DNA from: Pseudomonas sp. KU43P
Lineage (GTDB): Bacteria > Pseudomonadota > Gammaproteobacteria > Pseudomonadales > Pseudomonadaceae
DNA: 64,000 bases
Assembly (NCBI RefSeq): GCF_033095865.1
Contig: NZ_AP019365.1
Coordinates: 2,205,501-2,269,500, forward strand
Direction: 5' to 3'
Part shown: positions 2,973 to 37,137 of the stretch, piece by piece
Layout of the letters: each line of letters opens with the position of its first letter
Position numbering within the stretch: the first letter of the stretch is position 1
Position numbers and translations under genes: made by a program
The notes under the pieces: generated by a model
The model's input: only the letters and a program-made list of their open reading frames with translations
Told to the model about the DNA's origin: nothing
The model's database searches: none

Positions 2973-3746
2973 TTACTTGAAGAACTGGCTCGGGGTTATG
3001 CCGAACTGGCGCTTGAACATGCTGGCGAACGCGCTGGGGCTGTCGTAACCCAGGGTGCCGGCCACGTCGATGATGCGCTCGCCCAGGGCGATGCGCTCCA
3101 GTGCCTGCATCAGCCGCGCCTGCTGGCGCCACTGGCCGAAGGTCATGCCGGTTTCCTTGCGGAACAGGCGCTGGATGGTCTTTTCATCGATGCCCAGGTG
3201 CAGGCCCCAGTCGGCCACCGTGGAGGGGTCGTCCGGCTTGTGCTGCAGTGCCGAGCAGATCGTTCGCAGGCGTGGGTCGCTGGGTTGCAGCAGCTTCAGC
3301 GGCAGGGTTGGCAGCACGCAGATCTCGTCGAGGATCAGGCGCATGATGCGCGCCTGGCGGGAGTCTTCGGCGAAGGGCCCGGTGAAGTCCACCGAGGCCT
3401 TGATCAGTTCGCTGAGCAGCGGCGAGATGCTGATGGCCTTGCTCTGCTGCGGCAGTGGCGCTGCCGTGTCGGGGCGCACGAACACGCTGCGCATCTTCAC
3501 GTCACCCACGCAGCGGATGGCGTGCACCTGGCCGCAGGGCATCCAGATGCCGCGACTCGGCGGTACCGTCCAGCGTTCGGCCTGGGACTCCACGATCATC
3601 AAGCCCTTGATGGCGTAGATCAGCTGATGCTTGGCATGCGAGTGCGGCGCGATGTACCAGTCCGGCGGGTAGTCGGTGGCGCGGCTGCCCACTTCCCAGG
3701 ACCATTCATCGACCTCAACCAGCATGTCTTTCAAGGGCTTGACCAT
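2973..3746 (-). CDS. AraC family regulator with N-terminal cupin
   Basis: 257 residues from the ATG at 3746, preferred over an ATG 21 bases upstream because GGGAG lies just before it. An N-terminal cupin (PHSHAKHQLIYAIKG, then PPSRGIWMPCGQVHAI) is followed by a C-terminal AraC double helix-turn-helix (STVADWGLHLGIDEKTIQRLF and DVAGTLGYDSPSAFASMFKRQFG). This architecture is that of the NimR/YdfF-type regulators, which often control an adjacent efflux gene. The MFS gene at 3783-5018 lies 36 bases upstream on the same strand, so the two are probably co-transcribed and the regulator is likely to control that pump. Confidence 0.88.
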   Translation of the reverse strand: MVKPLKDMLVEVDEWSWEVGSRATDYPPDWYIAPHSHAKHQLIYAIKGLMIVESQAERWTVPPSRGIWMPCGQVHAIRCVGDVKMRSVFVRPDTAAPLPQQSKAISISPLLSELIKASVDFTGPFAEDSRQARIMRLILDEICVLPTLPLKLLQPSDPRLRTICSALQHKPDDPSTVADWGLHLGIDEKTIQRLFRKETGMTFGQWRQQARLMQALERIALGERIIDVAGTLGYDSPSAFASMFKRQFGITPSQFFK

Positions 3747-3782
3747 GGTGCTCCCGTGTAGCCGCATCAGCGCGTCGCCATC

Positions 3783-5018
3783 TTAGCAGCAGGTGGCCGG
3801 CCGCGCTTTCGAGCGGGTCGCCGGCAACAGCGCGGTGGCCAGCCCAAGCAGTGGCAGGAACGCGATCGCCTGGTACACCCATTCGATGCCATGCCGGTCC
3901 GCCAGCTCGCCAAGCCCCGCAGCGCCGATGCCGCTGATGCCGAACATCAGGCCGAACATCACCCCGGACACCATGCCGACCCGGCCGGGTACGGCTTCCT
4001 GGGCATACACCACCAGGGCCGCGAAAGCCGAGGACATCACCAGGCCGATGATCACTGCCAGCACCGCTGTCCAGGCCAGGTTGGCGTGGGGCAGGGCCAG
4101 GGCGAAGGGGGCCACGCCGAGGAAGGACACCCATATCACCGCCTTGCGCCCGATGCGGTCGCCCACCGGCCCGCCGGCGAAAGTGCCCAGGGCCACGGCG
4201 GCGAGAAACACGAACAGGTAGAGCTGGCTTTGTTGCACGCTCAGGCCGAAGTGCTCGATCAGGTAGAAGGTGAAGTAGTTGGTGAACGAGGCGATGTACA
4301 CGAACTTGGCGAACATTAGCACCGCGATCACCCCGACCGCGCGCCACATGGCGCCCTTGGACAAGCCAGGGGCCTGCTGACCGGCGAAGGTCTTGAGCCG
4401 GGTCTGGCCGTGGCGCACGGTCCAGCCGGTGACACGCAGCAGCACGCACACTGCCAGCGCTGCGGCCAGCATGAACCAGGCGATGGCCGTTTGGCCGTGG
4501 GGGATGATGATGGCGGCGGTCAGCAGTGGGCCGATTGCCGAACCGGTATTGCCGCCGACCTGGAAGGTCGATTGCGCGGTGCCGAAGCGCCCGCCGGAGG
4601 CCATCCGCGCCACCCGCGAGGCTTCGGGGTGAAAGGTGGCCGAGCCGACGCCGACCACGGCGGCCGCCACCAGCAGCATGCTGTAGCTGTCGGCGAAGGC
4701 GAGCAGGGCGATGCCGACCAGGGTCACCAGCATGCCGGCGGGCAGCAGGTAGGGTTGCGGGTGCTTGTCGGTGTACATGCCCACCCAGGGTTGCAGCAGC
4801 GAGGCGGTGACCTGGTAGATCAGCGCAATCCAGCCGATCTGGGCGAAGCTCAGCGAGAAGTCGCTTTTGAGCATCGGGTAGATCGAAGGCAGCACGGCCT
4901 GGATCAGGTCGTTGAGCAGGTGGGCGAAGGCGGCGGCACCGACGATGCTGACCAGGAAACCCTGGGGTTGGTCGGTGGGCGTGGAGGGCGAGGCCATGGT
5001 GGCGGCTGGAGTCGTCAT
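3783..5018 (-). CDS. MFS efflux transporter, fosmidomycin-resistance (Fsr) type
   Basis: 411 residues from the ATG at 5018. An upstream in-frame ATG at 5105 would add a polar, non-homologous-looking 29 residues and is not favoured. Twelve hydrophobic segments are visible. Fsr-like features include the opening HLLNDLIQAVLPSIYPMLK, the FHPEASRVARM segment and the D-R-x-G-R-K loop (GDRIGRKAVIW) between halves. The family exports fosmidomycin and related small molecules from the inner membrane by proton antiport. It is followed after 36 bases by a cupin-AraC regulator on the same strand. The true substrate here is not known. Confidence 0.85.
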   Translation of the reverse strand: MTTPAATMASPSTPTDQPQGFLVSIVGAAAFAHLLNDLIQAVLPSIYPMLKSDFSLSFAQIGWIALIYQVTASLLQPWVGMYTDKHPQPYLLPAGMLVTLVGIALLAFADSYSMLLVAAAVVGVGSATFHPEASRVARMASGGRFGTAQSTFQVGGNTGSAIGPLLTAAIIIPHGQTAIAWFMLAAALAVCVLLRVTGWTVRHGQTRLKTFAGQQAPGLSKGAMWRAVGVIAVLMFAKFVYIASFTNYFTFYLIEHFGLSVQQSQLYLFVFLAAVALGTFAGGPVGDRIGRKAVIWVSFLGVAPFALALPHANLAWTAVLAVIIGLVMSSAFAALVVYAQEAVPGRVGMVSGVMFGLMFGISGIGAAGLGELADRHGIEWVYQAIAFLPLLGLATALLPATRSKARPATCC

Positions 5019-5293
5019 GGGCGAGGCTCTTTTCGTGTGGAGGCAAGGCATTGCGGCTGGAGAATAGCCAGCGCTGCTTTTGTCTGTCTCACGTCGAACA
5101 GGCACTCACTAGCGCGTTTCGGACATCAGATTGTGGCGGCCCTATCGCCGGCCTGCTCGGCACAGAGGTCGGAAATCAGGCTGGAGGGGTAGCTTGATCT
5201 GGGCGCAGAGGCATGTCTACCCGGCGATGACCGACGAACAGATCGCGCCGCTGCTGGTCGCCGCTGTCGGCGAGATGGCGCTCTGAACGTGCG
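5019..5293. other. Intergenic stretch with degenerate REP and an unassigned open frame
   Basis: Between the Fsr-like gene and the small gene at 5294. A degenerate P. putida REP half (ggccctatcgccggcctgct) lies near 5136-5155. On the plus strand, an open frame without a start runs from about 5113 to a stop at 5286 and ends WAQRHVYPAMTDEQIAP...GEMAL. It reads like the C-terminal tail of a real protein, perhaps a gene remnant, but I cannot assign a family. Confidence 0.35.
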
Positions 5294-5530
5294 CTAGAGC
5301 GACGCGTCTTTTCTGGCCATCCACTTGAGCAGCGCAGCAATCGGCACGCGGCGGTGCACTTCGTGACGTTGCAGTGCATCGCCGTTGCCATAGCGCTCGC
5401 GATAGCGGCTGACGATCAGGTCGCGACCATCCTCCGATACCCGTGCCTCCAGCTCATGCAGCAGTGCTTGCTCTGCGCCACTCTCCAGGCGGCGAAATAG
5501 CAACACCGGGGGTTGTAATACGTCATTCAT
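5294..5530 (-). CDS. Small conserved hypothetical protein
   Basis: 78 residues with no signal peptide or membrane segment; the composition is charged and probably helical (LFRRLESGAEQALLHELEARVSED). A good GGAGC ribosome binding site precedes the ATG at 5530. It begins 3 bases after the stop of the MlaA-like fragment at 5534-5830 and is probably co-transcribed with it. The family is not recognised. Confidence 0.6.
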   Translation of the reverse strand: MNDVLQPPVLLFRRLESGAEQALLHELEARVSEDGRDLIVSRYRERYGNGDALQRHEVHRRVPIAALLKWMARKDASL

Positions 5531-5533
5531 CGC

Positions 5534-5830
5534 TTAGCTCCAGGTGATGCGGCGGCCGTTCAAGCTGGCGGTGAGGTTGTGCATGCATTGGGGGGTGAAG
5601 TCCGTGAGGTGCTTGCAACCCCGGGCGACCGGCGCCAGCGCAGGGTCGCCGACACTACGGTTGAAGGCGAAGATGGCGCGGTTGACCGGCTCGGCAGGGT
5701 CGCTGATCTGGTAGGCGGTGTGCCCGTAGCCACTGGCCGGTGGCCGCGCGCTGTAGCCTCCGGCGGCGAGCAGGGTCAAGGCGAGTACCGAGTTGCGGGC
5801 TGAAAACCAGGCAGAAAATGACAGGGGCAT
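5534..5830 (-). CDS. Truncated MlaA/VacJ-like protein
   Basis: About 98 residues from the ATG at 5830; the start is uncertain, with ATGs also at 5839 and 5914. After a hydrophobic leader (SVLALTLLAAGGYSA) comes DPAEPVNRAIFAFNRSVGDP, the signature opening of MlaA/VacJ outer-membrane lipoproteins, and a related stretch up to MHNLTASLNG. Normal MlaA proteins are around 230 residues, so more than half the domain is missing. The lipobox cysteine is also absent (LAAGG in place of LAGC), so it cannot be lipidated in the usual way. It is probably a decayed or truncated paralogue and not a functional lipid-asymmetry protein. Confidence 0.6.
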   Translation of the reverse strand: MPLSFSAWFSARNSVLALTLLAAGGYSARPPASGYGHTAYQISDPAEPVNRAIFAFNRSVGDPALAPVARGCKHLTDFTPQCMHNLTASLNGRRITWS

Positions 5831-30148: not shown

Positions 30149-30268
30149 GGGGCCGCTGCGCGCCCCTATCGCTGGCAAGCCAGCTCCCACAGGTACAGCA
30201 CTGCTCTTAAGTCTTGTGCTGTATGTGTGGGAGCTGGCTTGCCAGCGATAGGGGCACACAGCGGCCCC
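30149..30268. repeat. 120-bp REP-based near-perfect inverted repeat
   Basis: The arms are built of three perfect paired blocks. The outer block is GGGGCCGCTG/CAGCGGCCCC. The central one is a 29-bp REP arm starting ccctatcgctggcaagccag, and the inner block is TACAGCAC/GTGCTGTA. They surround a small loop. It lies between the convergent PCu(A)C and 30279 genes and probably acts as a bidirectional terminator. Confidence 0.85.
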
Positions 30269-30278
30269 TGTTCATTCT

Positions 30279-30506
30279 TCAGCTACGAAACCGTGGCAAA
30301 GGCCTGTCGAGTGTCAGCGACGTCAGGGTCTTTCGAACCTGGGCCTCATCGGCCTCCAGCGCCTTGAGGCTGGCGCGGATCTTGCCGGCGGCGGGCACAT
30401 CGCCCTGCCGGTCGATCCAGTCGGCAATCTCCTTGCAGGCACTGCTCAGGCAGGCTTGGCGCTGAGTCATCAGCGACAGGAGGGTGGTGAGCTCTCTTTC
30501 GGACAT
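30279..30506 (-). CDS. Small hypothetical protein
   Basis: 75 residues; a good GGAGGATC site precedes the ATG at 30506. It looks all-helical and charged (LTTLLSLMTQRQACLSSACKEIADWIDRQ, then IRASLKALEADEAQVRKTL), with no leader or membrane segment. The family is not recognised. It faces away from the peptide locus at 30894. Confidence 0.6.
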   Translation of the reverse strand: MSERELTTLLSLMTQRQACLSSACKEIADWIDRQGDVPAAGKIRASLKALEADEAQVRKTLTSLTLDRPLPRFRS

Positions 30507-30893
30507 GGCAGGATCCTCCGTTTAGCCCTGTGAGTGTAGCAGAGGATTGGCCGGCCTCTGCTGGCTTTGCCATGACGCATTTAAGGCGTGCTCTCAACGC
30601 GTAGAAACAACTCGTTACTTATAAACAGCATGTTTAAAGTTTCTGACATTGCGTTGACTTTGGATGATGCTCGGCAGCTGAAATTAAATCGTTGTAGCGC
30701 CTGATTGAACGGTATGGCAGTCGAAGTATAGAGAGGAATTGTGCGTGGGAATATTCCTGCGCACTGGCCTGTGCCTGCGGCCAGTATCCGGGTTTTTAGA
30801 ATTTGGGCATTGAGCAAAACCTGAAAATCGTCCTAGATTGATAGTGCCCGCAGCAACCAAGGGCGATTTCAATAATCTGAAAGGAGTTCTCTT
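30507..30893. other. AT-rich control region upstream of the peptide locus
   Basis: This 387-bp region has no convincing gene. It holds an 8-bp hairpin (AGCAGAGG / CCTCTGCT) at 30538-30562 and a stretch from about 30600 to 30890 visibly richer in A/T than the flanking chromosome. A candidate sigma-70 promoter and an AAAGGAG ribosome binding site for the 23-codon gene lie at its right end. Confidence 0.6.
30810..30839 (+). promoter_or_regulatory. Candidate promoter of the peptide locus
   Basis: TTGAGC at 30810-30815 and TAGATT at 30834-30839 are separated by 18 bases and lie about 55 bases before the 23-codon gene. This is a pattern match only. Confidence 0.35.
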
Positions 30894-30965
30894 ATGAAAT
30901 CTGCAATCGAACTGTTCCGCACCGATGTAACGGGCGTTACTACCCAAGGTGTGTGCATGTGGTAA
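30894..30965 (+). CDS. 23-residue peptide: candidate RiPP precursor or leader peptide
   Basis: ATG at 30894 with a strong AAAGGAG 7 bases upstream. The product begins MKSAIELFRTD and ends VTTQGVCMW. The C-terminal Gly-Val-Cys-Met-Trp is rich in residues that radical SAM enzymes commonly modify. It heads a co-directional set containing a HemN-like radical SAM enzyme and an exporter, and is separated from them by a hairpin, as precursor genes often are. The alternative is a regulatory leader or arrest peptide controlling the amine-forming enzymes downstream. Too short for homology assignment by eye. Confidence 0.6.
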   Translation: MKSAIELFRTDVTGVTTQGVCMW

Positions 30966-30970
30966 GCAAG

Positions 30971-30991
30971 GGGGCGGCCTAGTGCCGCCCC
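30971..30991 (+). terminator. Hairpin between peptide gene and enzyme genes (attenuator or partial terminator)
   Basis: A perfect 8-bp GC stem (GGGGCGGC / GCCGCCCC) with a CTAGT loop starts 5 bases after the peptide stop. It is followed by CTCTCTACCTC, not a clear T-run, so partial termination, mRNA stabilisation or attenuation are all possible. Confidence 0.55.
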
Positions 30992-31019
30992 TCTCTACCT
31001 CTTGAAAGGAGCATGGTTT

Positions 31020-31409
31020 ATGGATGATCGTGGCTACCACACCCTTTGGGATATAACAGGTGCCAGCGCAAAGTTGCTGACCAGCGATAAGACATTGCAT
31101 CGCTTTTTTCTGACTGTATTTCAGGCGTCCGGGTTCACCGTCATCAGCGATATGATCCACAAGTTTTCTTCAGGTGGGGAGGGTGTGACGGGGATCTTTC
31201 TATTGTCGGAGTCGCACCTTTCATACCATACCTACCCCGAGCGTGGGTATATCAGTATCGATGTCTATACCTGCGGCAAAGGCAACCACTCGATCAATGA
31301 ACGGATTGCAGCGTTTTTTGGTGAGGACGTCCAGGTCAACAGAAGGACGCTGTTGCGCGGCAGTGTGGTGACTGGCTTGTCGGGGGGGCGATATGCGACT
31401 GCTCGATAA
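31020..31409 (+). CDS. SpeD-like pyruvoyl-dependent decarboxylase (AdoMet decarboxylase family)
   Basis: 129 residues from ATG 31020, with AAAGGAG 8 bases upstream. It matches the short bacterial AdoMet decarboxylase class throughout its active-site block SESHLSYHTYPERGYISIDV. Ser65 after Glu64 is the self-cleavage/pyruvoyl site, and His70 and Cys85 (DVYTCG) are at the exact spacing of the catalytic residues of the Thermotoga-type enzyme. It should therefore be catalytically competent. No aminopropyltransferase (speE) is nearby. Some SpeD homologues have been reported to decarboxylate ornithine or arginine, so AdoMet is not assured as substrate. Its last 17 bases overlap the radical SAM gene. 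Confidence 0.85.
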   Translation: MDDRGYHTLWDITGASAKLLTSDKTLHRFFLTVFQASGFTVISDMIHKFSSGGEGVTGIFLLSESHLSYHTYPERGYISIDVYTCGKGNHSINERIAAFFGEDVQVNRRTLLRGSVVTGLSGGRYATAR

Positions 31410-32202
31410 AGGCCTGGTAAAGTTCGATTATCAATTTCCGCTTTATAATTTCTTCTTTCCGGCTCAGACGCACAACTGCTATGCGCCCGACAAAAGCCAG
31501 TTTTCAGAAATCATGGCCGGCGCCAATCAATCGGCACGTTCGCGCGCGTTGTATTTTCATGTGCCCTTTTGCGAAGCCATTTGTTCGTTCTGCCCTTTCA
31601 CGCGGGGGCTGTACAAGAGTGCCGACGACATTGACCGATATACGCAGGCGCTGATCCGGGAGATCGAATACAAGGCGCAGATGATCGATTTGAAAGCGGT
31701 ACCCGTCAGGGCGATATTTTTTGGCGGCGGCACCCCTTCGCTGTTGTCGCCGCGAAATATCCAGGACATTGGCGAGGCATTGCATCGTCACTTCGACATG
31801 AGCGAAGTGAAGGAGTTTTCATTCGAATTCAATGTCACCAGTGTCACCGAAGCGCGTGCGCGCGCGCTGGCCGATATCGGGGTGACCCATGCGCGCTTTG
31901 GGCTGCAAACGGTAGACAGCGAATGGCGCCAACTATTCAACCTCGACCCCGACATTGGCAAGATCGAGCGTGCCGTTGAACAGTTGCGCGCCCATTTCGG
32001 CCATGTGCTGTGTGACATTCTCTATGGCATGAATGGCAGCAACGAACATCAGACACTCGCCGACATCGACAAGGCCGTCGCCATGGGTGTCAGCAATGTC
32101 GATATCTACCCCATCAACAATGCCGCCACCTCCGTCAAATTGCACAAGCAGATCAGGGCACGCTCCACGGAGGTAATGCCCGCCATGCCAAGCTCAACAT
32201 GA
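31393..32202 (+). CDS. HemN/HemW-like radical SAM enzyme, N-terminal part (frame broken)
   Basis: 269 residues as read. The radical SAM cluster motif CxxxCxxC is Cys60, Cys64 and Cys67 (HVPFCEAICSFCPF), followed by the AdoMet-binding GGGTPSLL and later barrel strands (FSFEFNVTSV, RFGLQTVD, CDILYGMNG). This is the coproporphyrinogen oxidase-like (HemN) class, which also contains peptide methyltransferases. The frame ends prematurely within the barrel after SVKLHKQIRA, and the homologous continuation is in the next frame at 32199-32798. The start overlaps the SpeD-like gene by 17 bases. Confidence 0.8.
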   Translation: MRLLDKGLVKFDYQFPLYNFFFPAQTHNCYAPDKSQFSEIMAGANQSARSRALYFHVPFCEAICSFCPFTRGLYKSADDIDRYTQALIREIEYKAQMIDLKAVPVRAIFFGGGTPSLLSPRNIQDIGEALHRHFDMSEVKEFSFEFNVTSVTEARARALADIGVTHARFGLQTVDSEWRQLFNLDPDIGKIERAVEQLRAHFGHVLCDILYGMNGSNEHQTLADIDKAVAMGVSNVDIYPINNAATSVKLHKQIRARSTEVMPAMPSST

Positions 32203-32798
32203 AGTTCATGCTCGATGAGCACCTGCGCCAATATGGTTATGTGCCGTACAACGGCCATGGCTATGTGCACAGGCCCGGAAACGGCGGTGAACTGTTCAGC
32301 GATGATTACGCGTTCATCTACCACGAACATGTCTACGGCTATGCCGATCACGACCTATTGGGCTTTGGCGTGGGGGCTATCTCTTCGGTGGCAGGGCACG
32401 TCATTACCAATGTTTCCCTGCGTGAAAAATATACCCAACGCATGACGGCAGGCGAGCACCTGTGCCAGGTCAGCCGGCACGACCCGGTGCTGGATGTGGT
32501 CAAGCCCCTTGTACTGCGCCTGGCCTACCACGGTTCGGTCGACAAGCGGTTGGTCGAGCTGGCCCGTGTGCCCAAGGCGCTGATGCAGCGACTCGATGCA
32601 TTGGTCCAGTCCGGCCTGGTGGTGGAGGACAACCATTACTACCGGTTGACCCGGCTTGGTTGGCTTTGGTACAGCAACATCATGTTCTACCTGATGCCTG
32701 CAAGTGAACAGGACATTCTCCGAAAGCTGGTGTTCGAACGGCTCGATGTCCCTGGGCGGGACATCACGGAGCATGAATTGATTTATGCCGCTGGCTGA
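32199..32798 (+). CDS. HemN/HemW-like radical SAM enzyme, C-terminal part
   Basis: 199 residues if begun at the ATG at 32199, which overlaps the upstream stop as ATGA; the same frame is open further back (TLHGGNARHAKLN). It reads as the missing second half of a HemN-type protein. It has YGYVPYNGHGYVHR, then LLGFGVGAISSVAGHVITN (the LGxGAxS region), then a HemN C-terminal helical domain. Either one base was lost between about 32150 and 32190, inactivating the gene or reflecting a sequencing error, or the enzyme is made as two coupled chains. No canonical -1 slippery heptamer was seen. Confidence 0.7.
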   Translation: MKFMLDEHLRQYGYVPYNGHGYVHRPGNGGELFSDDYAFIYHEHVYGYADHDLLGFGVGAISSVAGHVITNVSLREKYTQRMTAGEHLCQVSRHDPVLDVVKPLVLRLAYHGSVDKRLVELARVPKALMQRLDALVQSGLVVEDNHYYRLTRLGWLWYSNIMFYLMPASEQDILRKLVFERLDVPGRDITEHELIYAAG

Positions 32799-32812
32799 GG
32801 AAAGCATGAAAT

Positions 32813-34030
32813 ATGCAGGCGTTGAGTCTTAACAGCGGCACACGTTCCCTGACGTTGGGCTACTGCTTTTCCAAATGTGGTGAGTTTGCCTTCGAAGCGG
32901 CCTTTGCCGTGGCAATCGTGTCCATGACCGATGCAGACCTGCTGTTGATTGGCATTGCCTATTTTTTCCGCTACTTGCCGAGCATGGTGTTTTCGCCCTT
33001 GGGGGGGTGGCTTGCGGATAACGCCGACAAGAAACGCACACTGTTTCTGGTAGAGGCCGCCAAAGGCATCCTGGCACTTGCCTTCTTCATGGCGTTCAGC
33101 CTGTTCGCGCCAGTATTGCCCGTGTTGGTTGGCCTGGTGATGGTCATGACCGCGCTCGAGTGTTTGTATGTGCCGACGTTTCGCGCGTACTTTCCCGACC
33201 TTGTCGAAAAGGACCAGTTGGCCTCGGTCAACAGCGGAATCCAGGTGATCGAGGATGCTGCCTCGATTATCGGCCCGCTGGTTTTCTCGGTGTGCGTGTT
33301 GCTGCTGTCTCGCGATGCAACGTTCCTGTTCTTTGCCATATGCCTGGTGTTGTCGGCCATTTCCATCGCAACGTTGGGGCCTGCCAGGCAAGGCGCCCGA
33401 CAGGCATTCGAAGGCCGCGCCATCATCCGCGATGCGGCGCGCAGTGTTGGCCGGCTTAGGGCCAGCAATGCGCCATTGTTTGCTGTCATCGGCTGCACCA
33501 CGCTCTGTGCGATGTTCGCGACGTCGGTGATTCGCTTCATCCTTCCGGCTTCGGTGCTGGAGCACTTTGCCTCTGAAGCGGCGGTCGGTTACGTGTTCTC
33601 GCTGTTGGCGGCAGGCACCGTATTGGGTGGCGTGCTCTACACACGCTTCAACCCGCGCACAACTGCGCGCTTGGTGCTGCGTTACTGGGTGTTGTACGGC
33701 GCGCTGTTCTTTGCGGCTGCAGTGGCGCTGCAATTCAACAGCTGGCTGTTTCTGCTGATGCTGTTTCTGGTCGGCTTCATTGGTGCATTCGTCGATATCG
33801 CCATCGTCACCAACATCCAATGCTTGTCGAGCGAGCATGAAGTTGGCCGCAACTTTTCCCTCTATTACTTCACAGCCGTCATTGGGGACGCCGTCTCAGG
33901 GCTGGTTGCCAGCCTGGTCTTCGTGCTTGCGGGCCCGGCAACTTTCATCTGGATGACGCTCATGCTGTTCATCGCGCCCGTGCGCTGGAACCTCAAAGGA
34001 ACTGCACATGACACCGACCATCCTCTATAG
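32813..34030 (+). CDS. EntS-like MFS exporter
   Basis: 405 residues with about twelve membrane helices. The pattern FRYLPSMVFSPLGGWLADNADKKRTLFLVE and the NSGIQVIEDAASIIGPL segment place it in the MFS_3/EntS group, which exports siderophores and other secondary metabolites. It begins 14 bases after the radical SAM part and its end overlaps the decarboxylase gene by 23 bases. The likely role is export of the locus product, inferred from position. Confidence 0.85.
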   Translation: MQALSLNSGTRSLTLGYCFSKCGEFAFEAAFAVAIVSMTDADLLLIGIAYFFRYLPSMVFSPLGGWLADNADKKRTLFLVEAAKGILALAFFMAFSLFAPVLPVLVGLVMVMTALECLYVPTFRAYFPDLVEKDQLASVNSGIQVIEDAASIIGPLVFSVCVLLLSRDATFLFFAICLVLSAISIATLGPARQGARQAFEGRAIIRDAARSVGRLRASNAPLFAVIGCTTLCAMFATSVIRFILPASVLEHFASEAAVGYVFSLLAAGTVLGGVLYTRFNPRTTARLVLRYWVLYGALFFAAAVALQFNSWLFLLMLFLVGFIGAFVDIAIVTNIQCLSSEHEVGRNFSLYYFTAVIGDAVSGLVASLVFVLAGPATFIWMTLMLFIAPVRWNLKGTAHDTDHPL

Positions 34031-36059
34031 CGCGGGGCTGCCCATGGCTGCATGGGAGGGCATGCAGGCGACCGTTTTCAATTCGTCAGTCAACCTCGCG
34101 CTCGCTTCGGTATTGCTATTGAAGCCTGAAGATGCGCTGCAACCCGCAGTGCGTGAGGCAGTGGAGCGTTGGGGCCTGCCGCTGTTCATCGCCTTGGAAC
34201 ATCGGCATAGCCCGGTAGAGGCAGGCGATGAGCAGCGAGTGGACATACCCTTGTCGGCACACGACAGGGCACGGTTGATGGCTGCCGCGCTCGCCTTCGA
34301 ACAGCAGGCGCTGCCCCCTTTCACACGCACGGTTGCGTCTTTTGTTGGCAAGCGCCGGCCTACCTTCGCCTGCCCTGGGCACCAAGGTGGCGCATGTTTG
34401 CAGCAGCATCCTGCCGGGGCCCGTTTCATGAGCTTGCTGGGGCAGGGCGTGTTCCAGGTGGATGTGCCCCATGCCGCGCCCGAGCTGGGTGATGTGCTGA
34501 GCCATGAAGGCCCGGTACTGGAGGCGGAGGAACTGGCCGCAAGGGTGTTTGGCGCCGACGAGACCTGGTTCGTGCTCAATGGCACCTCCACCGCCAACAA
34601 GGTGGTTGCCAGCGCGCTGCTGGCGGCCGGCGACCTGGTTTTGCTGGATCGCAACAGCCACAAGTCGGTGTTTCTTGGCGCCTTGGTGCAGTGCGGCGCC
34701 TTGCCGGTGTACCTGGACAATGTGCGCGATGAGCGAGGATTGCTGGGCGGCTATCGCGTCGGTGCCCTGGATGAAGCCCATCTGCGCAGCTGGGCGGGGC
34801 AGGTCTGTGAGCGCCGGGCGCGCGAGCCCAGGCCCTTTCGCCTGGCGGTGATCCAGCAGGCAACGTGCGATGGGGTGGTGGTCGATGCGTCAGCCTTGTT
34901 GGCCCGCATCGGCCATCTGTGTGATTACGTGCTGTTCGATGGCGCCTGGGCCGGGTATGAGCCTTTTGTGCCGGCGCTGGCCGGGTTATCGCCGCTGAAT
35001 GTGCAACTGACCGACGCCTCGCCTGGCATTGTCGTGACCCAGTCGGTGCACAAGCAGATGTCCGGCCTCTCGCAAACCTCGCAGATTCACAAGAAGGACC
35101 GGCATATCAGCCACCTGCGCCGCTACTGCAGCTGGCCGGTGTTCAACGCCGCATTCATGCAGCACGCCTCGACCAGCCCTTCTTATCCGCTGTTCATGTC
35201 GCTGGAAGTCAATGCGGCCATGCTCGCCGAGGGTGAGGGCGAGCGCCACTGGCGCCAGGCGTTGGCGGCTGCGCAGTGGTTGCGCGAGCAGGTGGGGCGC
35301 CGCTGTCGCTTGATCCGGCCGCTGATGCTGACCGTCTCGAATACCTCGAGCCAGTACCAGCCACAAGGTGCCTTGGCGATCGAGCCTGGCCTGCACCATG
35401 CCGACCCGTGCAAAGTCATTTTCCTCACCCACGGGCCGCTGGATATCCCGGCCTGCCTGATCACTCGCTACCTGCAGGACTGCGAGTTCACGCCGGAAAA
35501 AACCGACTTCTACACCTTCACCCTGCTGATGACGCCCTCTAGTGACAGTGCCGCCTTGAGCCGGCTGGTGGACGCGCTCGAAGCGTTCGAAGCGCATTGG
35601 CACACGGGGACTGCGGCGCTGCAGTTGCTGCCTTCGTTGCGTGGAGCTGCAGCTACTTACGAGGGGCTGTCCATTGCTGCGCTGGGCGAGCGCATCAATG
35701 CGCTTTATCGCACGCATCAGGTTGAGCAGCGGCAAAGCGAGATTTTCAGCGCAATCGGGGCGGCGCAGTGCGATCGCTCGCCTTACCAGGCCAACCAGCA
35801 GTTCGTGCGTGGTGAGGCCCGTTTGCGCTGTGTGAAGGAGGTGGTGGGCCAAGTGGCGGCCGAGGGGGTGATCCCGTACCCACCCGGGATCATGTGCATC
35901 GCCCCCGGCGAGCGCTGGACGGCTGCGTTGGTCGACTACCTGCAAGCCGTCGAGGCGTTGGCGGCGCTGTACTGCGAGTTCGCCCCGCATATCCAGGGTG
36001 TCCATGAAATGCGCAATGCCGATGGCTCTGCCTCGCTGGGGGTATTCGTGCTTGACTGA
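34008..36059 (+). CDS. PLP-dependent Orn/Lys/Arg decarboxylase family protein
   Basis: 683 residues, slightly shorter than the 710-755 of the biodegradative enzymes. A reduced N-terminal wing domain is followed by RPTFACPGHQGG, a core with NGTSTANKVV and LFDGAWAGYEPF, and the PLP lysine Lys349 in TQSVHKQMSGLSQTSQIH, closely matching CadA/LdcC/SpeF. It is expected to make a primary amine (cadaverine, putrescine or agmatine) or to decarboxylate a peptide-derived residue. The substrate is not decided by sequence. It overlaps the exporter upstream by 23 bases and dinB downstream by 8 bases. Confidence 0.85.
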   Translation: MTPTILYSAGLPMAAWEGMQATVFNSSVNLALASVLLLKPEDALQPAVREAVERWGLPLFIALEHRHSPVEAGDEQRVDIPLSAHDRARLMAAALAFEQQALPPFTRTVASFVGKRRPTFACPGHQGGACLQQHPAGARFMSLLGQGVFQVDVPHAAPELGDVLSHEGPVLEAEELAARVFGADETWFVLNGTSTANKVVASALLAAGDLVLLDRNSHKSVFLGALVQCGALPVYLDNVRDERGLLGGYRVGALDEAHLRSWAGQVCERRAREPRPFRLAVIQQATCDGVVVDASALLARIGHLCDYVLFDGAWAGYEPFVPALAGLSPLNVQLTDASPGIVVTQSVHKQMSGLSQTSQIHKKDRHISHLRRYCSWPVFNAAFMQHASTSPSYPLFMSLEVNAAMLAEGEGERHWRQALAAAQWLREQVGRRCRLIRPLMLTVSNTSSQYQPQGALAIEPGLHHADPCKVIFLTHGPLDIPACLITRYLQDCEFTPEKTDFYTFTLLMTPSSDSAALSRLVDALEAFEAHWHTGTAALQLLPSLRGAAATYEGLSIAALGERINALYRTHQVEQRQSEIFSAIGAAQCDRSPYQANQQFVRGEARLRCVKEVVGQVAAEGVIPYPPGIMCIAPGERWTAALVDYLQAVEALAALYCEFAPHIQGVHEMRNADGSASLGVFVLD

Positions 36060-37137
36060 ACACCCTCGACGGCCTGGCGGTGCGCGCAAGTTCATTCACG
36101 TCGACATGGACTCCTACTTCGTCGCCGTCGAGCTCCTGGATGCGCCCTGGTTGCGCGATCGGCCGGTCGCTGTGGGCGGCACGGCGCTGGAGCGGGGCGT
36201 GATCAGTACCTCCAACTACATTGCCAGGGCGTTTGGCGTCAGAAGCGGCATGGCAACCGCCACCGCGCAGCGCCTGTGCCCGGACTTGGTGCTGTTGCCT
36301 GTGCGCTTCGAGCGTTACGAGGCGGTCACTGGCAGGCTGGAGGAAATTTTCCGGCGCTTTACGCCGACCGTCGAGTTTCTCTCGCTGGATGAGGCCTCGC
36401 TGGATGTCACAGGGCAGCCGCACTGCAACGGTTCGGCGACACACATGGCCAGCCGTATCCGGGCAACCATCGAGCGAGAGCTGCAGTTGACGGCTTCGGC
36501 CGGCATCGCACCTTTGAAGTACCTGGCGAAAATGGCCTCTGAAGTGAACAAGCCCAATGGCCAGTTTGTGGTTGCACCGGATCAGGTGCAGGCCTTTCTT
36601 GCGAACCTGGACATTCGCAAGATCCCCGGGGTGGGGCCCAAGACCGGGGCTGTGCTGCAGGCCATGGGGTGCGTCAAATGCGCTGATGTCACCGAGCAGA
36701 TGATCCCTGCGCTGCTGCGCCAGCTCGGGGCGCATGGTTTCTATGTGTGGGAGCGTTGCCGCGGGCAGGAGGGCTACGAAGGCAAGGCGGGCGGTGTGCA
36801 GTCGCTGGGCGTCGAGCACACCTTGCCCAGCGACTGCCATGACTTTGCGCGCTGCGCCAGCGAACTGGATGGACTGCTGGCGGCCCTGGCGGTGCGCATG
36901 GAGGCGCTTGGCGATGCGCCGCCGATTGTCAGGAACCAGGTCAAGCTGAAGTTTGCCGATTTCACCACGGCCAGTGCCGAGGCGGGCGCCCTGGCATTGG
37001 AACCGCAGGTGGTGCATGGCCTGTGCCGCATGCTTTGGAATACCAAGCGGCAGGGGCGAGCCGTGCGCCTGGTCGGCATTGCCGTCAAGATCCGCAGAAG
37101 TCTGCCGGACCCATTGCAACTTGAGTTGGGATTGTGA
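36052..37137 (+). CDS. dinB: DNA polymerase IV (Y family)
   Basis: 361 residues from a TTG at 36052, the most sensible start before the conserved KFIHVDMDSYFVAVE; it overlaps the decarboxylase stop by 8 bases. Catalytic acids Asp18 and Asp113-Glu114 (SLDEASLDVT), the steric-gate region and the helix-hairpin-helix IPGVGPKTGAVLQAMG are present. It is an error-prone translesion polymerase, normally under LexA, but no SOS box was seen just upstream, where the decarboxylase gene lies. Being the last gene of an unrelated-looking operon is unusual. The 3' end overlaps the convergent AraC gene by 53 bases. Confidence 0.9.
   Translation: MTEHPRRPGGARKFIHVDMDSYFVAVELLDAPWLRDRPVAVGGTALERGVISTSNYIARAFGVRSGMATATAQRLCPDLVLLPVRFERYEAVTGRLEEIFRRFTPTVEFLSLDEASLDVTGQPHCNGSATHMASRIRATIERELQLTASAGIAPLKYLAKMASEVNKPNGQFVVAPDQVQAFLANLDIRKIPGVGPKTGAVLQAMGCVKCADVTEQMIPALLRQLGAHGFYVWERCRGQEGYEGKAGGVQSLGVEHTLPSDCHDFARCASELDGLLAALAVRMEALGDAPPIVRNQVKLKFADFTTASAEAGALALEPQVVHGLCRMLWNTKRQGRAVRLVGIAVKIRRSLPDPLQLELGL

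Follow-up and report, generated by a model that had tools for sequence, protein, structure and literature searches.

The radical S-adenosylmethionine (SAM) enzyme HemN acts on a propionate that sits beside a pyrrole ring. The genotoxins yatakemycin and CC-1065 come with DNA-repair self-resistance, SpeFL is an ornithine-sensing leader peptide encoded by a short open reading frame (ORF) upstream of speF, and microcin C is reportedly aminopropylated with decarboxylated SAM, to judge by the title of a 2025 study. For mycofactocin, we know of no SpeD, no Orn/Lys/Arg decarboxylase (OKR) or cytochrome P450 (P450), and no polymerase. HemN takes first the β-hydrogen of its propionate and then the carboxylate, and the HemN-family enzymes NosN and NocN act on an indole and alkylate it, as described in part of PMC12871812. 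In mycofactocin synthesis, the radical SAM enzyme MftC carries out an oxidative decarboxylation of the C-terminal Tyr of its precursor MftA, as far as the available part of PMC5682303 goes. The subject of this report is a gene cluster that can be set beside all of these. It lies in a 64,000-nucleotide stretch of Pseudomonas sp. KU43P, here called the window (positions 2205501-2269500 of the complete 5.87-Mb genome), and comprises genes for a 23-residue peptide, a SpeD-like decarboxylase, a HemN-fold radical SAM enzyme, a predicted MFS exporter, an OKR and a DNA polymerase IV.

It is reasonably probable that the cluster as a whole is a mobile pathway resembling those for ribosomally made, modified peptides (RiPPs), in which the radical SAM enzyme works at a C-terminal Trp, decarboxylated SAM is used, the product is exported and polymerase IV provides tolerance. 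Its gene content, conservation and co-inheritance, a peptide end that matches the subtype of the cluster, and changed residues in the SAM site are established. As in mycofactocin, the site of radical SAM chemistry would be the C-terminal aromatic residue of the precursor; in contrast, that residue is Tyr in mycofactocin and Trp here, and MftC has auxiliary clusters (the available part of PMC5682303). The class C enzymes NosN/NocN and TbtI share the HemN fold, the CxxxCxxC motif and a Tyr that stacks on the second SAM (SAM-II), but here the partners are a SpeD and a precursor with a free C-terminal Trp. Microcin C-type aminopropylation, again by title only, also draws on decarboxylated SAM for a peptide antibiotic, but no such adenylyltransferase is among the family matches of this cluster, which has a radical SAM enzyme instead. 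The yatakemycin and CC-1065 pathways likewise pair a HemN-like enzyme with a DNA-repair or tolerance gene; unlike the product proposed here they are not ribosomal peptides, and their resistance protein is a glycosylase, not a polymerase IV.

The peptide, SpeD, radical SAM, MFS and OKR genes are co-directional and tightly packed on the plus strand, both in the ORF lists and in the sequence. The peptide gene (30894..30965; MKSAIELFRTDVTGVTTQGVCMW) is preceded by the ribosome-binding site AAAGGAG, and its product begins with a SAIELF motif and ends in Trp. A hairpin with a 9-bp stem and a loop of 5 is predicted directly 3' of its stop codon (30970..30992). There follow the SpeD gene (31020..31409), the radical SAM gene in two pieces, the MFS gene (32813..34030, assigned by family models), the gene for the pyridoxal phosphate-dependent OKR (34008..36059) and that for polymerase IV (about 36052..37137, from a presumed TTG start). 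Gene ends overlap between SpeD and the radical SAM enzyme, between MFS and OKR, and between OKR and polymerase IV. A first-pass annotation had described five or six packed co-directional genes, and ORF lists and family models bear out every gene that it named. Its HemN-like radical SAM enzyme was right as to family but is not a single ORF, since a frameshift splits the gene; its end point for the unit, 36059, falls too early, as the OKR stop codon lies within the polymerase IV gene. The linked polymerase, the frameshift and the changed SAM-site residues had all escaped it.

Clusters of this kind were sought in two Pseudomonas samples, of 298 and later of 398 genomes (the KU43P genome counted in both), and the radical SAM clade in class and phylum samples of 369 and 398 genomes as well. 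The clade is present in 7/298 Pseudomonas genomes and in 9/398 of the larger sample, own genome included; in all nine a short Trp-ending peptide heads the operon, with SpeD, MFS and OKR. Wider sampling found it in 2/369 genomes (KU43P and the divergent G471) and in 1/398 (KU43P). The clusters fetched first are L012-L017, where the L012 contig corresponds to Pseudomonas faucium and L017 lies in genome G070; L112 and L113, from the larger sample only, served as a fresh test, and L018-L020, which share their contigs with L012, L014 and L016, were left out of the counts. With plasmids of Xenorhabdus, Glaesserella and Klebsiella, this gives 12 loci at which an intact upstream region allows the peptide to be scored: nine in Pseudomonas, one each in Xenorhabdus and Glaesserella, and the second of two Klebsiella plasmids. 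The first Klebsiella plasmid has lost the upstream part and could not be scored. The protein database holds 342 relatives of the radical SAM protein at E <= 1e-30, the best 120 of which include proteins named from Burkholderia, Pantoea and Vibrio. At E 1e-30 the radical SAM query (P0097) has no match among phage records, viral contigs when scanned gave 11 loci, all distant (22-34%), and PADLOC returned nothing for the five proteins submitted to it.

A short peptide ending in Trp was found at 12/12 scorable loci, so that an encoded precursor is co-inherited with its putative modifying enzymes wherever this can be scored. The peptide is identical to that of the window in L012 and 78-100% identical in 5/6 of the first-fetched other Pseudomonas clusters; the sixth, L017, has a different one (MNAKSAKGFFKKNQQATSRVKEFGTRACW) that ends in RACW. 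The peptides of L112 and L113 are MKSAIELFKTDVTGVTTKGVCMW and MKSAIEMFKVDVVGVTGKGVCMW, and every other cluster gene is present in both loci too. The Xenorhabdus, Glaesserella and second Klebsiella plasmids encode MESAMELFEVDINDCDLQGLCMW, MENAIELFVSRKNEEHYDFNNVAW and MESAIELFVTESSAENYDFNSVAW, respectively. Across this family, whose precursors are 23-29 aa long, an N-terminal motif xxA[IM][ED][LM]F (11/12, missing in L017) is followed by a variable middle and the C-terminal Trp (12/12), an architecture that reads as leader and core. M1, A4, L7, F8 and the last W are invariant in an alignment of eight peptides, which left out L012 as identical, L017 and L050 as too different, and L112 and L113 as found later; L113 has Met at the L7 position.

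Two further comparisons concern the standing of this ORF. Between the window and L012-L016, the peptide gene has a pN of 0.02-0.11 against a pS of 0.24-0.92 in the 14 of 15 pairs that differ, and by this codon-level measure it is more than a chance ORF and is under purifying selection. Furthermore, a set of 12 loci contains 83 ORFs of 20-30 aa behind a motif resembling a ribosome-binding site, of which 15 end in Trp; we take 11 of these 15 to be precursors, leaving 4/72. The first-pass annotation had proposed to check whether the peptide is kept where the enzymes are kept, which proved to be the case at all 12 loci with an intact upstream region, and the RiPP outline that it drew from a tiny peptide, a radical SAM enzyme and an exporter appears sound. 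The constant C-terminal Trp, invisible from a single copy, was absent from it.

The peptide also varies with the enzymes beside it. Its end is G[VL]C[ML]W in 9/10 OKR clusters, L017 being the exception, and N[SN]VAW both in the single P450 cluster whose peptide can be read and in a remnant that retains SpeD alone. Judged from these alignments, the peptide end follows the subtype of the tailoring enzyme, OKR or P450. The gene order is peptide, SpeD, radical SAM, MFS, OKR in L012-L016, and peptide, radical SAM, SpeD, MFS, OKR in L017. The Xenorhabdus plasmid carries SpeD, radical SAM, MFS and OKR with a peptide, and the Glaesserella plasmid SpeD, radical SAM, P450 and an MFS gene in two pieces, again with a peptide. 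On the first Klebsiella plasmid radical SAM, P450 and MFS genes are broken by an insertion sequence, and within the 7.5 kb fetched from the second only SpeD and the peptide remain. A cytochrome P450 thus takes the place of OKR in L047 and L048, for which reason OKR is regarded as an exchangeable tailoring enzyme and the predicted core as peptide, SpeD, radical SAM enzyme and exporter. The pairing of two decarboxylases, seen in the first-pass annotation as the mark of the system, gives way to this division: SpeD belongs to the core, and OKR is replaced by P450 on the Glaesserella and Klebsiella plasmids. OKR itself (PF01276, 347.5 bits) reaches 601.3 bits with PRK13578, the model of SpeF-type ornithine decarboxylases, below its cut-off of 794 bits, and is by its family scores similar to an ornithine decarboxylase (ODC). 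Both Klebsiella pneumoniae loci, L047 and L095, are cluster remnants broken by insertion sequences. When E. coli genomes were searched with the Klebsiella stretch of radical SAM, P450 and insertion sequence, 1821 records matched, none over 80% of the query, and the 20 listed cover the transposase alone.

SpeD scores 85.2 bits with TIGR03330, the AdoMetDC equivalog model (cut-off 75.65), and 9/9 SpeD rows keep the residues that match S63, H68 and C83 of the Thermotoga maritima enzyme, which serve in processing and catalysis; the same source notes that SpeD homologs can turn into ornithine or arginine decarboxylases (PMC10407285, seen in part). By score and residues the cluster protein is a predicted SAM decarboxylase of class 1b. 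It is the sole AdoMet_dc match in its own genome, and for a SpeE partner there is no Spermine_synth match in the window and two weak ones elsewhere in that genome. SpeD is present in 11/11 clusters with an intact gene row (nine in Pseudomonas, one each in Xenorhabdus and Glaesserella). At 24 HemN-like outgroup loci, several of them short, no SpeD, MFS or peptide match was seen at E 1e-4, and one, L030, has an OKR match. A 132-aa ORF at the SpeD position of L050 was considered as a SpeD without the catalytic Ser and dropped, as profile comparison gave it a probability of 0.6%. A further SpeD, on a Deefgea piscis plasmid (L096:3492-8012), stands apart from any annotated polyamine genes; the row that it belongs to also encodes a DUF3419 protein, an iron-containing redox enzyme, a monooxygenase and a serine hydrolase, and may represent another pathway that draws on decarboxylated SAM.

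The cluster's polymerase IV exceeds the PRK02406 cut-off (379.5 against 256 bits) and contains an SLDE motif and a C-terminal QLELGL, which we take to be the clamp motif. Homologs of at least 63% identity occur in 6/298 Pseudomonas genomes, all of them cluster-bearing and all adjoining the cluster, that is, in 6/7 cluster genomes against 0/291 others. By E-value, nothing in these 291, or in G070, scores above the housekeeping DinB (<=44% among the rows listed). The gene is again found beside the clusters of L112 and L113. In a DinB tree of 27 rows, from which five of the original 32 had been removed as misframed or short, the cluster polymerases form a 100/100 clade apart from housekeeping DinB. 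Since the L015 cluster sits at a different chromosomal site from that of the window, cluster and polymerase have moved together.

It is quite possible, if not the explanation that we favor, that this polymerase has nothing to do with the product and is a hitch-hiker or a gene tied to mobility in general. G070 has a cluster without the special polymerase, no polymerase IV is annotated beside the P450-type clusters of the Glaesserella and Klebsiella plasmids, and the DinB gene of the Xenorhabdus plasmid, some 0.5 kb upstream of the cluster on the opposite strand, falls on the housekeeping side of the tree, outside the cluster clade, and is given little weight for that reason. Against this reading stand the overlap with OKR, the occurrence of the gene beside the cluster at no fewer than two sites in the chromosome, and the counts above that separate cluster genomes from the rest. 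To our knowledge, polymerase IV has not been described as a cluster-borne means of self-resistance, and the literature search turned up no case.

The radical SAM gene of the window is split by a one-base frameshift into an N-terminal part with the CxxxCxxC motif (31393..32202) and a C-terminal part in another frame (32199..32798), whose start overlaps the upstream stop as ATGA. Seven of the eight fetched Pseudomonas relatives have a full-length frame: five of these translate to 468 or 473 aa, and the other two, which came to light later, align from end to end with no stop codon. The eighth, the L015 enzyme, is cut short at the C-terminus and has 448 aa. Because relatives keep the frame, the window's copy has been either recently broken by a young mutation or misread through a sequence error. 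The nearest NCBIfam models for its N-terminal part are HutW, the STM4012 family, HemN and HemW, all far below cut-off (for HemN, TIGR00538, 104.2 against 324.95 bits). An AlphaFold (AF2) model of the intact L012 enzyme (pLDDT 91, 45-row alignment) has HemN as its best solved match, with a TM-score of 0.70/0.75 for the predicted fold.

In NocN, Tyr34 stacks on SAM-II, Tyr96, Arg153, Asp196 and Ser225 hold its methionine part, and Arg171 forms a salt bridge where SAM-I binds, while the methionine part of SAM-II in HemN has no direct residue contact (all from part of PMC12871812). Forty-nine cluster-type proteins, close relatives among them (45 of alignment A5 and four more), were compared with 24 outgroup loci (L021-L044), two HutW proteins and partial HemN and NocN sequences. 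The equivalents of Tyr34, thus kept in 49/49 cluster-type proteins, and of Asp196 are conserved in every row compared. The position of Arg153, in contrast, is His in 49/49 cluster-type proteins against Arg in 24/24 outgroups, 2/2 HutW and 2/2 HemN/NocN, and that of Arg171 is Leu in 49/49 against Arg in all outgroups, HutW and HemN/NocN. Tyr96 is replaced by Phe in 49/49, a position that varies in the outgroups, and Ser225 by Asp in 49/49, as also in both HutW and 2/24 outgroups. Two further arginines are invariant in the cluster-type family: R168, new there and Ser in 26/27 outgroup rows, and R179, which HutW has too.

From these genes we infer the chemical steps and the activity of the product as follows. 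The 23-aa peptide would be the precursor, its AIELF-type start the recognition end and its last residues, with the C-terminal Trp, the core. The HemN-fold enzyme would modify this Trp, likely by oxidative decarboxylation or alkylation, since a free C-terminal Trp at an indole mirrors the substrate of HemN at a pyrrole. SpeD would supply decarboxylated SAM as a dedicated co-substrate, which would most probably occupy the second SAM site of the HemN-fold enzyme or else donate an aminopropyl group; both are suggested by a SAM decarboxylase being co-inherited and by the arginines having changed. OKR, or P450 in the other subtype, may tailor the product or supply an amine, and the MFS protein would export it. 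For the Pseudomonas form, a polymerase IV inherited along with the cluster points to a product that damages DNA and to a producer that bypasses the lesions with this polymerase. A more specific version, in which a RiPP class uses an enzyme with exchanged arginines and SpeD-made decarboxylated SAM to build a DNA-reactive, amine-bearing group on Trp while polymerase IV protects the host, strikes us as doubtful in all its parts together. We know of no radical SAM enzyme that uses decarboxylated SAM, and none turned up in the literature search.

The cluster is real, coherent and mobile, and as a probable peptide pathway it is unmatched to any described class in the incomplete literature searched; most subscription journals lay outside the search, which found no description of the cluster or its chemistry, and an earlier publication is possible. 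If the pathway proposed here is true, it adds a RiPP class whose very small precursor is easy to recognize by its final Trp and which occurs in Pseudomonas as well as on Xenorhabdus, Glaesserella and Klebsiella plasmids. That SAM-site residues have changed in an enzyme inherited alongside a SAM decarboxylase amounts to a clear claim on radical SAM chemistry that can be put to the test, and the polymerase IV that comes with the cluster by inheritance offers a handle on the mode of action ahead of the product. Decarboxylated-SAM radical chemistry and polymerase-based tolerance would, if shown, raise its significance.

Several observations, along with the clusters that lack a polymerase, weigh against this pathway. 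In the window itself the radical SAM gene carries a frameshift, and L017, an OKR cluster, has neither the N-terminal motif nor the G[VL]C[ML]W end. Neither a leader protease nor a RiPP recognition element (RRE) is among the Pfam and NCBIfam matches of the cluster proteins, with no RRE-specific search made. R168 and R179 might compensate for the lost arginines, and loss of Arg153 need not abolish carboxylate binding, as the methionine end of SAM-II in HemN does without a protein contact. The link between residues and SpeD is imperfect because Alicyclobacillus L050 combines His and Leu without a recognizable adjacent SpeD, and because Arg goes with Leu in L065, where no SpeD is annotated, and in G471, where a search of part of the sequence found none. 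Finally, the HemN-family indole alkylators NosN and NocN keep methylation open.

A rival reading is a RiPP pathway in which the radical SAM enzyme uses ordinary SAM only, for an oxidative decarboxylation as in mycofactocin or an indole methylation as in class C, and SpeD and OKR make a polyamine part that the host or another enzyme joins later. The target of MftC is indeed a C-terminal Tyr and that of NosN/NocN an indole, in the parts of their sources available, R168 and R179 could stand in for the lost arginines, and aminopropylated microcin C derives from decarboxylated SAM according to a reference title. No aminopropyltransferase is seen in any cluster, however, and SpeD stays in the P450 subtype though OKR is gone; we hold this course to be rather unlikely.

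The hairpin behind the peptide gene bears on a different function. It appears in the predicted fold of 10/11 loci (not L050), with stem sequences that vary between groups of loci. The energy of this stretch is within about 1.5 SD of shuffled sequences in the window, L012 and L048, and 2 to 5.5 SD below them in L013-L017, L049 and L095; Rfam has no match at E 1 within 30500-31100. The modeled hairpin is likely a partial terminator or a processing site that gives more peptide than enzyme. It could also belong to a regulatory leader like SpeFL, in which stalling on ornithine or a polyamine controls the operon through the hairpin and the product is a small amine. As in SpeFL-speF, a very short, strongly conserved ORF stands ahead of an ODC-like gene, here in an operon that also contains SpeD, with the hairpin right behind its stop codon. 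Unlike a leader of that kind, the peptide is not bound to an ornithine decarboxylase gene: it persists without OKR, with P450 in Glaesserella and beside the SpeD remnant in Klebsiella. Its N-terminal motif is conserved, and not its C-terminus alone, and its end differs by subtype, all of which makes a leader quite improbable. A heme-degradation operon of the HutW/ChuW type, or a porphyrin operon, mistaken for a peptide pathway is hardly credible: HutW (TIGR04107) is the NCBIfam model that fits the radical SAM enzyme best and one Xenorhabdus record bears that name, but the score, for the N-terminal part of the split gene only, is 150.6 bits against a cut-off of 400, 2/2 HutW proteins keep both arginines that differ here, no hut genes were seen (no hutX or hutZ is annotated beside the plasmid clusters), and a conserved peptide, SpeD and exporter are present instead.

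Distant relatives of the radical SAM enzyme occur in other settings. In another gammaproteobacterium, L064 (G471:C135) carries a related gene with an internal stop; adjoining it on the minus strand (3725-5572) is a second, longer protein that, to judge by its sequence, is radical SAM-like. This is possibly a sister system, with no SpeD in the part searched (L046). On Bacillota plasmids, ORFs of 10 and 15 aa (L050:7863-7895 and L065:6848-6895) lie immediately upstream of distant radical SAM relatives, behind strong ribosome-binding sites and with tandem DIVW or EWVAL repeats. Their candidate peptides, MRDIVWDIVW and MKKEWVALKNEWVAL, the latter without a terminal Trp, are leads only. A short way upstream of the cluster in the window, between a PCu(A)C gene and a 75-aa minus-strand ORF, lies a long inverted repeat (30164-30262), presumably of the REP/BIME type common in Pseudomonas putida.

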